A stretch of DNA of 37,877 nucleotides, taken from Bacteroidota bacterium. GTDB taxonomy: Bacteria > Bacteroidota > Rhodothermia > Rhodothermales > Rubricoccaceae. Within the stretch, counting starts at the first letter, position 1. Each line of letters begins with the position of its first letter. The position numbers were made by a program, and so were the translations under genes. The notes beneath the pieces are model-generated. The model worked only from the letters and a program-made list of their open reading frames with translations, did not search any database and was not told the DNA's origin. Where the stretch lies: positions 1 through 37,877 of the forward strand of contig JADFQN010000011.1 in assembly GCA_022561755.1 (NCBI GenBank), in the 5' to 3' direction. This document shows, piece after piece, positions 24,951 to 37,291 of this stretch.

Positions 24951-25138
24951 CTAGGAGCCTGTCGGATTTATGATGATTCTACTGCGGCGGCGGTTAATCG
25001 GCCCATTGTTCCGGTCTTTTTCGATACATAGGCTCACTATACTCCTCAAAAGATCGAAAAATGGCCTCGATTCTCCACTCGCCTCGCTACAGCCTGCCCC
25101 GCCTTGGCGGGGAACCCCTGAACCCGACAGGCTCCTAG
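24951..25138. mobile_element. MITE-like element family B, copy 3
   Basis: About 188 bases bounded by CTAGGAGCCTGTCGG and its exact inverse CCGACAGGCTCCTAG (15 bases perfect). It shares the family B interior but carries about 22 extra bases near the right end (GCCCCGCCTTGGCGGGG, itself a hairpin). It cuts a small reading frame on the minus strand (25135-25164). Confidence 0.88.
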
Positions 25139-25164
25139 TTCAATTCTTCGAACGAACTGAACAT
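25135..25164 (-). pseudogene. Start of a gene cut off by a MITE
   Basis: A minus-strand ATG at 25164 with a strong ribosome site (GAGGAG, 7 bases upstream) opens MFSSFEELN, then hits TAG made by the CTAG end of MITE B copy 3. SFEELxVW is how many four-helix-bundle (23S rRNA intervening-sequence type) proteins begin, so this may be the stump of one. No remainder is visible on the other side of the element. Nine codons are too few for certainty. Confidence 0.35.
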
Positions 25165-25324
25165 AATGAATCTCCTCGAATGTCTCCGGACGTAAATGAA
25201 GGGTATTGCAGCGCGTGAGGCCCGTTCTTATCTTCAGGGAGATTCGGAGAGATTCCGCGAGATTAGGCAATTGCCTTTCATGATGCTTGCGTAATACTTC
25301 CCCTTCTTCTAAACCCGGCTCGCC

Positions 25325-26545
25325 ATGGCCGTCAGATTTTACCTCAACACTCGGTCCGACACAGGAAATAAACCCGTGTCGATCTGTCTCGTGGCCATGC
25401 GTGGGGGCACGCAGATTAAGATCTCCACACCAGTTAGGGCGCGGCCCTCCGACTGGGCGCGCAAACAGCAGCGCGTTCGGTCTTCCGTGCCCGGTGCTGC
25501 CGAAGTGAACGGGGCGCTAGCGAGGCTGAAGGCCGATGCTGAAAGAATGCTTCTGGATTGCCGCACCGAAGCCGAGCTTAGGCAGGCTCTCCGGGAACGG
25601 CTTGGGAAGGGTGAGGCCAATCAGGAATCGGACATACTCGAACTCTTCGACAGGTTCATTGAGCATAAGCGAACGCGGTGCAGTGTCTCTACGATAAATG
25701 GATACCGGGCGGCACGGGGGCATCTTGCGGCATTCCTCGACGACCGCACCATCGCGCCTTCGGCCATCGGCCCCAGCTGGTTGGATGATTTGGCCACGTT
25801 CCTCGCGGGCACAGGAGCTCAGAACAGCACGGTCAACAAGATTCTAACACGAACGAAGAGCTTCCTTCGGTGGCTAGTGAGGCGAGAAATGCTGGCGAAG
25901 GTGCCGGTCTCCGAACCGCTTCCTACTGCGCAGAACTTCACTGTTTACCTTTCCCTTGATGAGCTGGCTACCCTTGCCGGCCTCGACTTGTCCGAGTACC
26001 GGGAAAGCTATGAGGCAACACGAGACCACTTCATTCTTGGGGCCGTCACCGGGCAGCGGTTCAGCGACGTGCAGGCCCTCCGGTGGGAAGACCTCGTGCC
26101 ACCTAGTGAGCCACATATTTGGCGACTCGCGGTGAAGAAAACAGGCGATACGATCACCGTGCCGCTCGCAGCCCCAGCCCGCTCCATTTTGGAACGCCGC
26201 AGGGGTGAACCCCGGCCTCTACCCCGGCTCACGAATCAGAGGGCGAACATCATCATCAAAGAGCTTTGCAAACTGGCGGGGATTGATGAGCCGGTGACGA
26301 CACACCGCGTGAAGGGTAGTGGGCGGAGTTCCGAGACGAGACCCAAACACGAGGTCATTTCCATGCACGCGGCGAAGAGATCGTTTGTCACGGTGACGCT
26401 TCAGTCAGGGCTCGCGCCGCATGAATTGTTGGGTTTCACACACCGAGACCTGAAAACACTGGAATTGTATGCCGGGAAGGACCAGGGCCGACTTACGACG
26501 GCTCTAGGGCTCGCCTTCGACGACCTGGAGTTGAGGGCGGGGTGA
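25325..26545 (+). CDS. Tyrosine recombinase (integrase)
   Basis: A 406-residue integrase of the kind found in Bacteroidota mobile elements. It has an N-terminal arm-binding part (VRFYLNTRSDTGNKPVSI), a SAM-like core-binding domain at about 105-195 (DILELFDRFIEHKRT...LTRTKSFLRWLVRREML), and a catalytic domain from about 205. Arg 245 (TGQRFSDVQALRWEDL), Lys 271/272 and the Tyr 382 nucleophile (LELYAGKD) are in place. Two catalytic spots are unusual: the HxxR box reads HAAKR (Lys at the Arg position, Arg one later), and the usual GH before the Tyr reads GFTH. It catalyses element integration and excision. Its stop overlaps the next start (GTGA), so the two are coupled. Confidence 0.92.
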   Translation: MAVRFYLNTRSDTGNKPVSICLVAMRGGTQIKISTPVRARPSDWARKQQRVRSSVPGAAEVNGALARLKADAERMLLDCRTEAELRQALRERLGKGEANQESDILELFDRFIEHKRTRCSVSTINGYRAARGHLAAFLDDRTIAPSAIGPSWLDDLATFLAGTGAQNSTVNKILTRTKSFLRWLVRREMLAKVPVSEPLPTAQNFTVYLSLDELATLAGLDLSEYRESYEATRDHFILGAVTGQRFSDVQALRWEDLVPPSEPHIWRLAVKKTGDTITVPLAAPARSILERRRGEPRPLPRLTNQRANIIIKELCKLAGIDEPVTTHRVKGSGRSSETRPKHEVISMHAAKRSFVTVTLQSGLAPHELLGFTHRDLKTLELYAGKDQGRLTTALGLAFDDLELRAG

Positions 26546-27834
26546 GCGAAGGAGGGCCCTATCATATTAAGGGGAAGCACGTCTCGCGCTGGGAGTATCT
26601 CACCGAGTGCCATGGAGAGGTAATTGCCGACGCCGCGGAGCGGGGGCGCTACGGGTATTCGGACGAGGGGTGGGGCTATCTATATCTCCGTACCGACAGC
26701 ATCATTCCCAGACCCGAGCGGGTTAGTATTGAGAGGGTCTTTCCGATAGACGTGTCGGCCTTGGCAGACCCCGCCACGCACTTTCGTGGGCTGGCTTCGT
26801 GGACCCGGTTCTTGCAGTGGTCTCCTCAGATACAGGATAATGACGCCGCCGTGACAGAGCGTGACTACTCCTATCCGGCAAAGCATTTCGATTCCAAGGC
26901 CCCAAAACGCGTCGGAGAGCAATATGATAGGCTTCGAAGCGACCACTTTGCAAGAGGCAAGCCGAGGGCCGGGGCTGTAGCAGACCTCCGAGCACTCAAG
27001 AATGAAGCGCGGGAAAGCCTCCAGCATTGGGCAAAGCAGATAGGCTCAAAGCTGGAATCGCTCAGGAAAGTGGTGGCCGTGCTGTTCCTGGAAACATGGT
27101 GGGCTATGGACGTCGAGCCGGAGACGCCATGGGAAGACCTCCCGGAAGAGAGGCGAAACCGGCTTGATAGCCTGGAGGCCCTATTCGTAAGCAGATGGCG
27201 CGATGCGATATTCGGCGCTAGCCGGACCTGGGCGATTGGAAGAGATATCACTAACTGGTCGTGGGGCTGGGAGGATGCCCCGGAAGTACTCTATGAACTT
27301 CAAGGATCTCGGATTCTCAGCCTCTGGGACAGACGGGATGCAATCATAGATGAGGTTTTCCCCGTAGAGGTTCAGCGCATGGCGTGCGAGAACATTCTCG
27401 CTAAGATTGTTCGCGGGGAAGAAGTGGGCCCGTGGAGCAAAAAGGACGAAGAGAGCCTATTGCCTCCCAGAGAAGACTTCGTGTGTCAGTCTCGCGAAGC
27501 CAGACGGGACATTTTTGACCTCTACGACGCACTGAATGAGGGGGGATATCGTGAGGAGGAGTGGACGATCCACACTGATATATATCGGGTGTTGGCAAAA
27601 AGAGAGGCAGAAACGAAATCACCGAACACCTCCAGGTCCAAGTTTATTGCTGGCGAGGTTGAAAGGCTAGCCCTGATGGTAAAGCGGACGCTTGAGTGGC
27701 GAGGCGCTAATGGCTTCCCTGGCGATAATGCTGTCCTATCGGGGACCAGCGAGGAGGCTGCGAAGCATGTTTGTGACTGGCTTTTTGAAATAGGGTGCTC
27801 GCATAAGTCCGAGTGGATGCGCAAAATGGCGTAA
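26542..27834 (+). CDS. Unknown protein of the element (430 residues), coupled to the integrase
   Basis: Starts at a GTG overlapping the integrase stop by 4 bases. It has no signal peptide or membrane segment. The N-terminal third holds a beta-type segment rich in aromatic residues (GYSDEGWGYLYLR, FRGLASWTRFLQW). The rest is mostly helical and charged (LRALKNEARESLQHWAKQIGSKLESLRKVV). I recognise no domain. A gene in this position might be a regulator, an integrase partner or a cargo gene such as anti-phage defence; the sequence does not decide. Base composition is similar to the integrase. Confidence 0.75.
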   Translation: MSEGGPYHIKGKHVSRWEYLTECHGEVIADAAERGRYGYSDEGWGYLYLRTDSIIPRPERVSIERVFPIDVSALADPATHFRGLASWTRFLQWSPQIQDNDAAVTERDYSYPAKHFDSKAPKRVGEQYDRLRSDHFARGKPRAGAVADLRALKNEARESLQHWAKQIGSKLESLRKVVAVLFLETWWAMDVEPETPWEDLPEERRNRLDSLEALFVSRWRDAIFGASRTWAIGRDITNWSWGWEDAPEVLYELQGSRILSLWDRRDAIIDEVFPVEVQRMACENILAKIVRGEEVGPWSKKDEESLLPPREDFVCQSREARRDIFDLYDALNEGGYREEEWTIHTDIYRVLAKREAETKSPNTSRSKFIAGEVERLALMVKRTLEWRGANGFPGDNAVLSGTSEEAAKHVCDWLFEIGCSHKSEWMRKMA

Positions 27835-27839
27835 GGAAT

Positions 27840-27879
27840 TTCCGACAGCTGTCGAAGCCTGTCGGAAGAACTGTCGGAA
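27840..27879. promoter_or_regulatory. Cluster of four CTGTCGGAA-type sites before the excisionase-like gene
   Basis: TTCCGACAG (27840, inverted), CTGTCGAAG (27849), CTGTCGGAA (27859) and CTGTCGGAA (27871) lie within 40 bases, the first two joined as a perfect CGACAGCTGTCG palindrome. Spacing of the direct copies is 10 and 12 bases, about one helix turn. This fits cooperative binding by the element's own HTH regulator/excisionase, or iterons of a replication origin. Confidence 0.6.
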
Positions 27880-27925
27880 TGGGTTAGTTGTCTTTAGGGG
27901 AAATCGACAACCTTTAGGCTCCATC

Positions 27926-28153
27926 ATGCACCGACACCCATCACCCGCTCAAGACGAAGTTGAGCCCACGCCGTACCTCAGCATCGAGCAAGTGACGCGG
28001 CGGCTGCACATCTCCAAAACGACCTTGTGGCAATTGCGCCGTGACGGCAAAATCCGAGCCTTCCACGTCGGACGTCGCGTTCTCTTCAAATCCGACGATG
28101 TCACCGCTCTCGTCGAGCAGGACGGCGCAGAACCCATCCTCCAGCCCGCCTAA
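27926..28153 (+). CDS. Excisionase/AlpA-type helix-turn-helix protein
   Basis: A 75-residue protein made of one winged HTH: YLSIEQVTRRLHISKTTLWQLRRDGKIRAFHVGRRVLFKSDDVTALV. This is the pattern of the excisionase/MerR-like HTH_17 family (helix, recognition helix with TTLWQLRR, wing GRRVLFK). In integrated elements such proteins direct excision and/or switch on the integrase and replication genes. It lies 46 bases after a cluster of repeated operator-like sites. Good family match; the role is inferred from context. Confidence 0.88.
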   Translation: MHRHPSPAQDEVEPTPYLSIEQVTRRLHISKTTLWQLRRDGKIRAFHVGRRVLFKSDDVTALVEQDGAEPILQPA

Positions 28154-28258
28154 CCCCCTTTTAGCCCAAAACCCCGCCCCGGTATTCGCCGGAGACGGGG
28201 CTCGGGTACTCACGGCGCAGAGGCAGGTCAAAGCATTTGCGCGCATCACGTAGTAACA

Positions 28259-28756
28259 ATGCCTAAGAACATCATCACGACCGAACAAGATACGGCAGAT
28301 TCCCAGGAAAGGTCCAATAACGGTCATCGCCCAGACGGAATCCCCCGACAGGCTCTTGGGCGCTTCGTTAACCCGGGAAGCCATCGCATCATTTATAGTG
28401 GAGGTCCAGACAGCACGCTCCGATGGGCCTCCACAGTGTATGGCCGACAATCCGGCTCCGTTCTCCGCCTGGTAGAATTTCTCGTATCCAGAAACCGGAG
28501 ATTACTGGCCCTGCGGAAGAGGAATTTCCCCGTTCTACTCCCTGAAAGAATCTGCGAGCCATCGAATCAGACGTGGCGGCGGCGGCTCGTGGGCACGCCC
28601 GCGTACCAGGCTGATCGCCGGGCGCGGCGAGCCCGTGCGATAGTTGAGCTCTTGAAGCGGAGGCGAATACTCGGCAAGCAAGGCAACGCCCTGCCAACGC
28701 CGCGGCTGGTGCGGGGCGATTCTCGCCAGGCCCTTCAAGCAGCCGGGGCAGTATGA
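28259..28756 (+). CDS. Small basic protein of the element, unknown
   Basis: A 165-residue ORF ending in an ATGA overlap with the primase-like gene, which argues it is real. The middle and C-terminal parts are very rich in Arg (RRRLVGTPAYQADRRARRARAIVELLKRRRILGK), consistent with nucleic-acid binding. No family is recognised and no ribosome site is clear at 28259. A longer minus-strand ORF (28389-29054) overlaps it but runs into the primase gene, so I favour this strand. Confidence 0.5.
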   Translation: MPKNIITTEQDTADSQERSNNGHRPDGIPRQALGRFVNPGSHRIIYSGGPDSTLRWASTVYGRQSGSVLRLVEFLVSRNRRLLALRKRNFPVLLPERICEPSNQTWRRRLVGTPAYQADRRARRARAIVELLKRRRILGKQGNALPTPRLVRGDSRQALQAAGAV

Positions 28757-30552
28757 GCACTGACGTGACAGCACAAGAGAGGGTAGACCAGAAAGCTGCC
28801 GAATCCCGCAAGGCAGCGAAGGCGGATCCGGCAATGCTTCGCCAATTTCTACGCCTCACCGATAGCACTTCTGACGAAATGGTAAAGATGATCGCAGAGG
28901 CCGACGCGGCTGCGGTCACATTGCAGGGCGAGTACCAAGGTGCGAGAGTTCGCGCACGACAGCTACGCGAGGGGCAGGAGAAGTTGACACCGGACGGCTC
29001 GCTGCCTTTCATGCCCTTCCCAGTTGAGGAGGTATTCGCAGAGCCTCTAGCCAACTTCGTACGTACTCAGGAGGCTTCTATCGGCTGCGATGCAGCGGCT
29101 ATTGCCCTCCCCGTTATTGGGCAGATGGCGGCCGGAGTAGGTAACTCGCACCGCGTCGAAGTGATCGAAAACAACTGGTACGAGCCTTCGACTGTTTGGG
29201 TGTTCAACCTCGGCAAGTCCGGCACGCACAAGTCCGTCGTGCAGCGCGCCGCGTTGAAGCCCATGAAGAAGTGGGCGACAGATGCGTATGACGAGTACGC
29301 CTTTTCGATGGAATCGTACGACAACACGCTTGCCGAGTGGAGCGCAAAGCCGCCCAACGAACGAAAGGACAAGCCCACGCCGCCGGTATGCCAGCGATAC
29401 GCCGTCAATGATATCACGATTGAGGCGCACGCGATCATCCAATCCGAAAACCCGCACGGTGTGCCGCTGGCTAGGCCCGAGGGCAGTGGTTGGCTGAAAG
29501 GCATGGGCCAATACAAGAAAGGCGGTGGTGGCGAAATGTTGAGTTGGATAGAGTTCTGGGATGGTGACGAAATGACCATCGACAGGAAGACGGGCACGCA
29601 CCGCACCGTCCACATTCCCGCGCCATGTACTACCGTGATATCAGGAACACAACCGGGAGCATTGCGCCGGGACTTGACAGCTGAGCATTTTGACTCAGGA
29701 TTCGCCCCTCGTTTGCTTTTATGCGAGCCTCCCACGAGGCCCAGAAGGTTCACCTGCACGCCCGTGTCCACCGAGGTGTGGTACGAATACCACGCAGCGA
29801 TAGACGGGCTCTACGCCCGGCCCGATGGCGGCAGGCCAATCCCCTTCTCGCCAGAAGCCGAGGTGCTCTGGGAGAGATACTACAACACCTGTGCGGATGC
29901 CATTGAGCTGATCAAGTCTGATCGCTTGCGGGCCGCGTTCGTCAAGCTCGAAACGTATTGCGCTCGGTTCGCCTTGATCCTGCACCTCTTGGATGTTCAC
30001 CTGGATGGCGTGCCCCCCAATGAGGCGCCGCCGCCAATTTCGTTTGATGCGATGCGCCGGGCCGTTATTCTGGCGGTGTGGTGGAGGCACGAAACGGCGC
30101 GGATCTACGACAAATATGGATTCTTAGGCTTTGCCAACAGCAAGTTCGCTGAAAAGGCGGATGAGCTACCCGAGGTGTTCACCGCGAGAGACGTTGAGGA
30201 CGTTTGGAATGTCCAGCGGGCGCAGTCCTTCAAGATCATCAAGGGCCTGGTTCGTGATGGGATCGCGCGGCAGGACCAGCACGGCGAATACCGGAAAGAG
30301 ACGGTAGACTTTGGAGACTTTGGAGACTTTGCAGGCGTGACGATAGACACAAAGGCGTTACTTGCTGGGCTTGGGGCCAATAGTCTCGAAAGTCTCCAAA
30401 ATCCACAGTCCACACGGCCAGAAATCGAAACGGAGCCCGAGCCCTTGGAAGCCCGGCAAAACGGTAGCCACGAAGCGCCCGCCGGCGATGGGGTTAGCAC
30501 GGATGAGCCCGCCTTTGTTTGGGATGCAGACGACCAAGAAGGTGAGGCATAA
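28753..30552 (+). CDS. DUF3987 primase/helicase-like replication protein
   Basis: A 599-residue protein of the DUF3987 family, common in phages and integrative elements of Bacteroidota. The N-terminal FPVEEVFAEPLANFVRTQEASIGCDAAAIALPVI block leads to a P-loop-like GKSGTHKS at 154-161, in the position of Walker A. Next come SWIEFWDGDEMTIDRKTG, TTVISGTQPGALRRDL and FAPRLLLCEPP, all typical. The C-terminal part (about 475-515) looks like a winged helix (EVFTARDVEDVWNVQRAQSFKIIKGLVRDGIARQD). DUF3987 proteins are thought to be helicase-type ATPases used in element replication. DFGDFGDF near residue 520 comes from a repeated 9-mer. Confidence 0.9.
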   Translation: MSTDVTAQERVDQKAAESRKAAKADPAMLRQFLRLTDSTSDEMVKMIAEADAAAVTLQGEYQGARVRARQLREGQEKLTPDGSLPFMPFPVEEVFAEPLANFVRTQEASIGCDAAAIALPVIGQMAAGVGNSHRVEVIENNWYEPSTVWVFNLGKSGTHKSVVQRAALKPMKKWATDAYDEYAFSMESYDNTLAEWSAKPPNERKDKPTPPVCQRYAVNDITIEAHAIIQSENPHGVPLARPEGSGWLKGMGQYKKGGGGEMLSWIEFWDGDEMTIDRKTGTHRTVHIPAPCTTVISGTQPGALRRDLTAEHFDSGFAPRLLLCEPPTRPRRFTCTPVSTEVWYEYHAAIDGLYARPDGGRPIPFSPEAEVLWERYYNTCADAIELIKSDRLRAAFVKLETYCARFALILHLLDVHLDGVPPNEAPPPISFDAMRRAVILAVWWRHETARIYDKYGFLGFANSKFAEKADELPEVFTARDVEDVWNVQRAQSFKIIKGLVRDGIARQDQHGEYRKETVDFGDFGDFAGVTIDTKALLAGLGANSLESLQNPQSTRPEIETEPEPLEARQNGSHEAPAGDGVSTDEPAFVWDADDQEGEA

Positions 30553-30824
30553 TGAAGCCGATGACACAGGCCGAACTAAGCCAAGCCACAAGCAACGCGG
30601 CGCGGTGGTTTGACCATCATCGCAACCGCTACACAGCGGAGGACGAGGACCTGTTCGACGCGTTGCTCCAGTTGATTGAAACGCGCCTGCATCTGCTCGC
30701 GCTCAGCGAAGAACTGGAGCGCCGCCAGCTGCACGAACCAATGGCACAGGACCGCGCCGCCAACCCATCACCACACCACACACCGGTGCACTCACCCGCC
30801 TCCATCACCATCCCGACAAACTAA
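30552..30824 (+). CDS. Small helical protein of the element
   Basis: A 90-residue protein whose ATG overlaps the last base of the primase stop (TAATG). The middle (EDEDLFDALLQLIETRLHLLALSEELERRQL) is a long amphipathic helix, probably a coiled coil. The tail is rich in Pro/His/Ser. No family recognised. Tight coupling with its neighbours supports it being expressed. Confidence 0.6.
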   Translation: MKPMTQAELSQATSNAARWFDHHRNRYTAEDEDLFDALLQLIETRLHLLALSEELERRQLHEPMAQDRAANPSPHHTPVHSPASITIPTN

Positions 30825-30829
30825 TAGCT

Positions 30830-31288
30830 ATGGGCACCCGACTACAGGACACCTACTCAGACGACTTTAGAGCAGCCGCCCTTACGCTCGTAGAGGCTTC
30901 CGGCGGTAAGGGGCACGTCATGCGCGTGGCTGACCAGCTGGGCATCCCTGTGAGTACCCTGCATCACTGGTTCGCGACGAGCCAGAAGCAGAATGAGACC
31001 CCTGAGTTTGCAAGAACACGAGACATTAAAAAAGGTGAGCTTGTGGACTTGCTGGAAAGCCTCGTGTTAACCGCCCTGGGCGTACTCGACGACGCCGACA
31101 AGCTCAGCAGTGCACAGGTCCACCACGTGAGTACGGTCATGGGCACGGCGTTCGACAAACTCCAGCTATTAAAAGGAGAAGCGACACAGCGCACAGAAAC
31201 CACTATCGAGCGGGGAATCTACACGGACCTCCGGTACATACCGGATGTCGAAGAGGCTGAGATAGTCGAGGAACTGCGAAACGAGTGA
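30830..31288 (+). CDS. HTH protein resembling phage small terminase subunit
   Basis: A 152-residue protein. Residues 10-48 (DDFRAAALTLVEASGGKGHVMRVADQLGIPVSTLHHWF) form an HTH of the kind seen at the start of phage small terminases and in IS3-type transposase OrfA. There is no transposase continuation: the rest is a helical part (KKGELVDLLESLVLTALGVLDD...STVMGTAFDKLQLLKGEA), as in phage HTH/TerS-like proteins. If it is TerS-like, it would redirect a helper phage's packaging machinery to the element. This is inference from shape and position as the last gene of the element. Confidence 0.6.
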   Translation: MGTRLQDTYSDDFRAAALTLVEASGGKGHVMRVADQLGIPVSTLHHWFATSQKQNETPEFARTRDIKKGELVDLLESLVLTALGVLDDADKLSSAQVHHVSTVMGTAFDKLQLLKGEATQRTETTIERGIYTDLRYIPDVEEAEIVEELRNE

Positions 31289-31436
31289 TAATCATTGCGA
31301 GGATGATGGCGATGCGGACTAAAATGCCAGCGAAGAAGCGAAGAGGGCGTTAGGTACGAAGCGAGAGAACTCGCGCTATAAAAAGGAGGTCGGGGGCCAC
31401 GGCATTATCAGACCGCCCCCCCACGCCTCCCGCTTC

Positions 31437-32235: not shown

Positions 32236-32346
32236 CGGGCACGCGAGGCGATCTCCCATGCGGATGGTCTACCTAGCGGTACGTACCTCTACCGGCTGGA
32301 GACGCCGCAGGGTAGCCATGTGCGGACGATGCTGCTGGCGAAGTAG
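32236..32346 (+). pseudogene. Orphan C-terminal fragment of a T9SS sorting domain
   Basis: The plus strand reads ADGLPSGTYLYRLETPQGS, then HVRTMLLAK and a stop at 32344. This is the exact closing pattern of T9SS type A sorting domains (compare DASSLPSGVYVYTLRAEGQ in the M36 protease). No upstream part of a protein is in frame: a stop lies at 32233. It is the remains of a lost surface-protein gene. Confidence 0.7.
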
Positions 32347-32504
32347 GAGAACCCCCAATTCAGCATAAAACACCTTCCGCCCATGAGAGACCCGAGGGCT
32401 TCGAGCCGCCCCTCGTCGGCGGGCGGGCGTCGTGTGCGAACTAAGTGATGCTGTCCAGTTGGCCCAACTCGCTCCGTCTAACCCGCACGGACGGTCGGCG
32501 GCAG

Positions 32505-32541
32505 GCTCAGCCCGTAGAAGACGCGGAGTTCGCCGCCGTTG
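32505..32541 (-). repeat. Dispersed 37-base repeat (second copy at 33592-33628)
   Basis: CTCAGCCCGTAGAAGACGCGGAGTTCGC occurs here and at 33594, with a few differences just after it. On the minus strand both read ELRVFYGLS, and then each runs to a stop. They may be tails of related decayed genes rather than a regulatory repeat. Confidence 0.5.
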
Positions 32542-37150: not shown

Positions 37151-37246
37151 CGATCAGTCGTCTCGTCGGATAGGGAAACCCAATCTCTCCAGTTGGGCTC
37201 CAATCTCTACTATGGTTGCGGGTGTTAGAGTCTCTCGACTGACTCG

Positions 37247-37291
37247 TACCCCCTGTAGGACTCGAACCTACGACAGCCTGATTAAGTCAGG
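37247..37291 (-). pseudogene. Degenerate tRNA 3' half
   Basis: On the minus strand: CCTGA-CTTAA-TCAGG (anticodon-like stem with a loop of only 5), then T-arm GTAGG-TTCGAGT-CCTAC, then AGGGGGTA like a 3' acceptor and discriminator. No matching 5' acceptor or D-arm lies upstream. A tRNA 3' end without its 5' half is the usual scar of tRNA-targeted integration. Confidence 0.6.

Follow-up and report, generated by a model that had tools for sequence, protein, structure and literature searches.

A candidate PICMI-like phage satellite in a Rubricoccaceae genome, its sibling element and tRNA-bounded relatives

The window analysed here, a stretch of 37,877 nucleotides (positions 1 to 37,877 of contig JADFQN010000011.1, assembly GCA_022561755.1) from a Bacteroidota bacterium of the family Rubricoccaceae, contains a block of seven open reading frames that we refer to as E1 (Table 1). 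The integrase, excisionase-type HTH and DUF3987 genes named in the first-pass annotation were all confirmed by Pfam and PHROGs matches. The integrase, of the Phage_int_SAM_5/Arm-DNA-bind_5 type, matched Phage_int_SAM_5 (E-value 4.6e-9), Phage_integrase (2.7e-6) and phrog_1 (1.9e-23); the excisionase-type protein matched HTH_17 (PF12728, 4.3e-12) and the excisionase family phrog_66 (4.4e-10); and the DUF3987 protein matched PF13148 (4.6e-52) and a helicase family, phrog_2373. Missing from that earlier gene list was the 430-aa gene between int and alpA (26542-27834), for which Pfam and PHROGs gave no match, as was also the case for ORF165, where the codon-position GC signal is weak; in all, a Pfam family match at a meaningful level is lacking for three of the seven ORFs. 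The genes do share a single orientation with overlaps, as had been noted, at three junctions: 4 nt (GTGA) between int and the 430-aa gene, 4 nt (ATGA) between ORF165 and the DUF3987 gene, and 1 nt between the latter and the 90-aa gene. The core frames are all open and have a coding-like base composition. In agreement with the reported lack of capsid, tail and conjugation genes, no capsid, tail, portal, TerL or relaxase match was obtained in the block with Pfam and PHROGs.

Table 1. Features of the window (positions counted from its first nucleotide), the sibling element E2, and relatives bounded by repeats.
Feature	Position	Strand	Evidence or remark
MITE-like dispersed repeat, 18-bp inverted repeats, CTAG ends	24951..25138		inverted-repeat search, genome copies
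Three direct repeats TTCNGNGAGATTNNG, putative integrase arm or operator sites	25233..25267	+	function inferred
E1 gene block	25325-31288	+ (all)	5.96 kb
Tyrosine integrase, 406 aa	25325..26545	+	Phage_int_SAM_5, Phage_integrase, phrog_1 matches
430-aa gene, positional analogue of PICMI iolg	26542..27834	+	no family match
Dyad/direct repeat cluster TTCCGACAG..CTGTCGGAA..CTGTCGGAA upstream of alpA	27840..27879		repeat search
AlpA/Xis-type HTH_17 protein, 75 aa	27926..28153	+	PF12728, phrog_66
ORF165, doubtful gene, position of PICMI up1	28259..28756	+	no family match
DUF3987 replication protein, 599 aa	28753..30552	+	PF13148
90-aa conserved gene	30552..30824	+	homologue in sibling element E2
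152-aa HTH protein	30830..31288	+	HTH_Tnp_1 below cut-off; low-confidence model
E2	G000:C193:9853-21506 (L027:854-12507)		11.65 kb; 15-bp repeat at tRNA-Val 3' end
L029			5.9 kb; tRNA-Val 3'-end repeats, 17 bp
L095			5.35 kb; tRNA-Asp 3'-end repeats, 18 bp
L098			9.9 kb; tRNA-Ser 3'-end repeats, 14 bp
L100			6.25 kb; tRNA-Ser 3'-end repeats, 16 bp

The direct repeats upstream of the integrase gene are 15-mers at 10-bp spacing, and these three copies are the sole zero-mismatch matches within the window. The site cluster that had been described at the excisionase gene is likewise present, as the repeats upstream of alpA. Tens of copies of the MITE-like repeat were found across the genome, and its end sequence, AGCCTGTCGGA, occurs again inside the alpA cluster (27856). 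In the integrase, the second catalytic arginine is replaced by lysine (HAAKRSF versus HxxR), with H-x-x-R at this position in the eight relatives compared; the nearest integrases are those of relatives L100 and L098, at 34-37% identity.

The last gene of the block had been described as TerS-like, a claim that found no support, as the search for a terminase small subunit with Pfam and PHROGs was negative for the 152-aa protein. It scored 21.4 bits against HTH_Tnp_1, where the cut-off is 24.1, and HTH_23 was also below its cut-off in Pfam; the possibility, raised earlier, that this protein would match only transposase OrfA or generic HTH families was therefore realised in part, with both matches falling short of the threshold. 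No homologue was found among 395 genomes of the phylum, and nothing significant came from the order-level genome search, phage tblastn, PDB phmmer or Foldseek run on a low-confidence AlphaFold model (pLDDT 55). The predicted layout, an N-terminal HTH followed by two long helices forming a helical hairpin and a floppy tail, could be compatible with TerS, but the identification is unsupported, no terminase family, fold or homologue backing it. A search with the motif DKLQLLxGEAT drew 33 viral stretches, with an HTH protein in most of them; we discarded this link as motif-only and circular because the viral profile loses the 152-aa protein once the motif is masked. The viral proteins form a phage HTH family on IMG/VR contigs (L108-L140), where genes carrying DKLQLLxGEAT lie in an early region beside an excisionase-type HTH gene and a DnaQ-type exonuclease.

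The limits first proposed for the element, 25139 and 31436, are not its ends, since 25138 is the edge of the MITE-like repeat and 31437 is the stop of the neighbouring cupin gene. The MITE-like repeat adjoins the left side of E1 and possibly lies just outside it. The flanks are non-phage, with a chalcone-synthase-like gene, lipoproteins and the cupin gene as neighbours. To about 24.9 kb the left flank is syntenic with the chromosome of the sole same-genus genome; the right flank was not found in that genome, and neither was an empty site. Exact and mismatch-tolerant searches that began in the left flank and ran as far as the end of the contig returned no att repeats above the shuffled level. 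Further right, at 37245-37290 on the minus strand, is a sequence resembling the 3' half of a tRNA (GTAGGTTCGAGTCCTACAGGGGGTA), not called by ARAGORN (default settings) or Rfam, which is possibly the scar of another tRNA integration; it was rejected as the distal end of E1, the integrase side having no matching copy.

The same genome encodes a sibling element, E2, bounded by a 15-bp repeat: one copy lies precisely at the 3' end of tRNA-Val, the other at C193:9853, and GGTCAAACATT arm repeats are present at both ends. Its genes are an integrase, an int-overlapping gene, an HTH_17-type gene whose Pfam score stays under the cut-off, a helicase of the AAA_25 family, a homologue of the 90-aa gene, an Sf6-type TerS (PF20901 2.6e-15, 56.8 bits versus a cut-off of 27; phrog_1482 3.7e-14) and a further HTH protein weakly similar to TerS. 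E2 showed no TerL, capsid or tail genes, and Sf6-type TerS was not found in any other genome of the order. In both E1 and E2, int is followed in order by the overlapping gene, xis, the gene for the replication protein and the 90-aa gene; the two 90-aa genes are homologues (75% DNA identity over 115 bp, 4.6e-15) and the replication proteins have a common N-terminal region (34%, 9.1e-5). No mutual homology was detected among the int-overlapping proteins. E2 is a better satellite candidate than E1. It runs 6.6 kb beyond its last core gene, and this region holds cargo consisting of a Ser/Thr kinase-TPR protein and a SpoIIE phosphatase. Downstream of its TerS, E2 also contains sequence 94% identical to remnants found 1 kb to the right of E1 (32283-32532), which resemble the end of a T9SS C-terminal sorting domain. 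Because of the E2 cargo and these remnants common to both elements, E1 may be longer than 6 kb.

A family-model search of 113 genomes of the order found DUF3987 in 17, and a peptide-pattern search of viral contigs and genome contigs recovered nothing close. The gene order of E1 recurs at L094, L095, L098, L100 and L105, where the integrases resemble those of E1 or E2, and int and alpA are homologous and in the same order across E2, L094, L098, L100 and L105. In L095 a clear gene between int and alpA is missing, and in L098 an IS-type transposase has inserted next to the gene at this position. Four relatives from the same order or phylum (L029, L095, L098 and L100) carry DUF3987 and are bounded by direct repeats at tRNA 3' ends; no capsid gene was seen in these bounded elements, and a search for the empty site of L100 did not find its flank in four congeners. 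Because relatives are delimited in this way, the plan is that of a genuine integrative element. Other neighbourhoods differ: L032 ends in a DUF5681 gene; L033 (G422) encodes int, xis and DUF3987 followed by a MobA/VirD2 relaxase (PF03432, 9.2e-38); and in L006 (G005) and L101 (G071) the genes after DUF3987 encode a TerS-like HTH or DUF2280 protein and a tape-measure or minor-tail protein; these two loci may be prophages that bear tail genes, or elements of some other kind. The concern that the genes might belong to a larger prophage in relatives bears on the prophage-like L006 and L101. Since it occurs beside a relaxase in L033 and beside tail-type genes in L006 and L101, the DUF3987 module is common to more than one kind of mobile element.

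PICMI115 of Vibrio, at 6,110 bp, encodes int, iolg, alpA, up1, a DUF3987-type primase and up2; iolg overlaps int by 4 nt (ATGA) and is required for excision, and the element, which has no packaging genes, enters helper capsids in the form of a concatemer (PMC10803314; Nat Commun 2024). The PICMI model consists of co-localised integrase, AlpA (PF05930/PF12728) and primase (PF13148/PF19263) genes, integration downstream of fis with direct repeats is called a hallmark, and a gene overlapping int by 1, 4 or 13 nt is found in 21 of 35 PICMI subfamilies (PMC10803314). E1 combines an integrase with PF12728 and PF13148, as the gene-based model describes, and further resembles PICMIs in the 4-nt GTGA overlap of int by the 430-aa gene (a likeness of position), in the ORF between alpA and the primase and in a core of about 6 kb. 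No packaging or capsid-remodelling gene was identified in E1 either, but its right end is not fixed and the 152-aa HTH protein could be a TerS. In contrast to PICMIs, E1 is not at fis, showed no direct repeat, is not from Vibrionaceae, encodes an integrase with Phage_int_SAM_5/Arm-DNA-bind_5 domains and ends in the 152-aa HTH gene. PICMIs, moreover, never occur more than once per genome, and complete ones are described only from Vibrionaceae (PMC10803314), whereas this genome has two elements of this plan, of which E2 carries TerS. Because the fis hallmark failed, we call E1 PICMI-like and do not file it as a PICMI. Elements of the PICI/SaPI type (Gram-negative PICIs; PMC6092414) resemble E1 in the presence of int, an AlpA-type regulator and a replication protein in a short block, and E2 in also having terS, but in E1 no terS was identified, small-capsid genes are lacking and DUF3987 takes the place of classical pri/rep; a site bounded by attL and attR, present in E2 and four relatives, was not found for E1. 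Of the PICI order int-alpA-pri/rep-terS proposed in the first-pass annotation, int, alpA and the DUF3987 gene stand and terS is unsupported, and the Vibrio PICMI layout fits better than the classical PICI. E1 differs from a prophage in the absence of capsid, portal, TerL and tail genes.

On balance, we consider the chances about even that E1 is a candidate phage satellite, integrated and PICMI-like, or the excision and replication core of one. The satellite reading is partly supported by sequence comparison, chiefly through E2 and the relatives; we infer mobility and helper-phage use. By analogy with PICMIs, one would expect int and the int-overlapping gene in the lysogen, a helper phage that infects it would turn on the alpA operon through the promoter with the dyad, and AlpA, Int and the product of the overlapping gene would together excise E1, which the DUF3987 protein would then replicate. 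Packaging by the helper is expected because E1 has no capsid-remodelling or recognisable packaging gene; it would proceed as for PICMI concatemers, provided that the 152-aa HTH protein is not a TerS that escaped recognition, and might lead to transduction. Counting against a satellite are the lack of att repeats, an empty site and a TerS or packaging gene, the integrase lysine and the L033, L006 and L101 contexts, as well as the helper-prophage marker TerL_ATPase (PF03354), for which this incomplete genome yielded no gene.

Several of these points would suit an E1 that has decayed and become immobile, or one that forms the left part of some larger island or prophage with its right end beyond 31.4 kb or beyond the contig, an explanation we regard as unlikely. 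The missing terminal repeats, the change of Arg-II to Lys, the reach of E2 past its core genes and the T9SS-tail remnants downstream in both elements speak for it, but the open core frames with their coding-like composition and the left flank, syntenic chromosome in the same genus, speak against it. The claim that E1 is intact and mobile is weakened because no terminal repeat beyond chance was found and because E1 has a non-syntenic right flank, is possibly longer and has the integrase lysine. "Compact", "mobile" and "helper-dependent" are therefore putative terms for E1: no att repeat was found, the right end is not fixed and the integrase carries that lysine.

Bacteroides NBU elements have the gene order int–xis–primase. 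E1 resembles mobilizable elements of the NBU1 type in its integrase type, xis-like gene and primase-like gene order, and it might be such an integrative mobilizable element, or an island without a relaxase that conjugation machinery, and not a phage, moves in trans. The Phage_int_SAM_5/Arm-DNA-bind_5 integrase and the relaxase that follows int, xis and DUF3987 in L033 would agree with this, but domain searches (for some elements, gene inspection alone) found no relaxase in E1, E2, L029, L094, L095, L098 or L100, and the sibling E2 carries TerS instead. The explanation is weaker because the relaxase is absent, and we think it rather improbable. That E1 is a chance neighbourhood of unrelated genes, as the three ORFs without a meaningful family match might suggest, is most improbable given the overlapping gene junctions and the repetition of the order, with homologous int and alpA, in E2, L094, L098, L100 and L105.

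Phage satellites have been described mainly in Proteobacteria and Firmicutes, and in our partial coverage of the literature we found no paper naming them together with Rhodothermota. With E1 read as a PICMI-like candidate satellite, we tentatively suggest, as a possibility somewhat short of even, that there is a lineage of tRNA-targeting minimal satellites outside Vibrionaceae, built on int, an overlapping gene, alpA and DUF3987 (or an AAA_25 helicase), some with Sf6-type TerS and two in one genome. If true, this lineage would bridge the plans of PICMIs and PICIs and bring satellites into this phylum. The known range of satellites would be broadened by compact DUF3987 elements that have tRNA att repeats, together with a sibling that carries TerS, and these would offer defined targets for a search for helper phages in this phylum.
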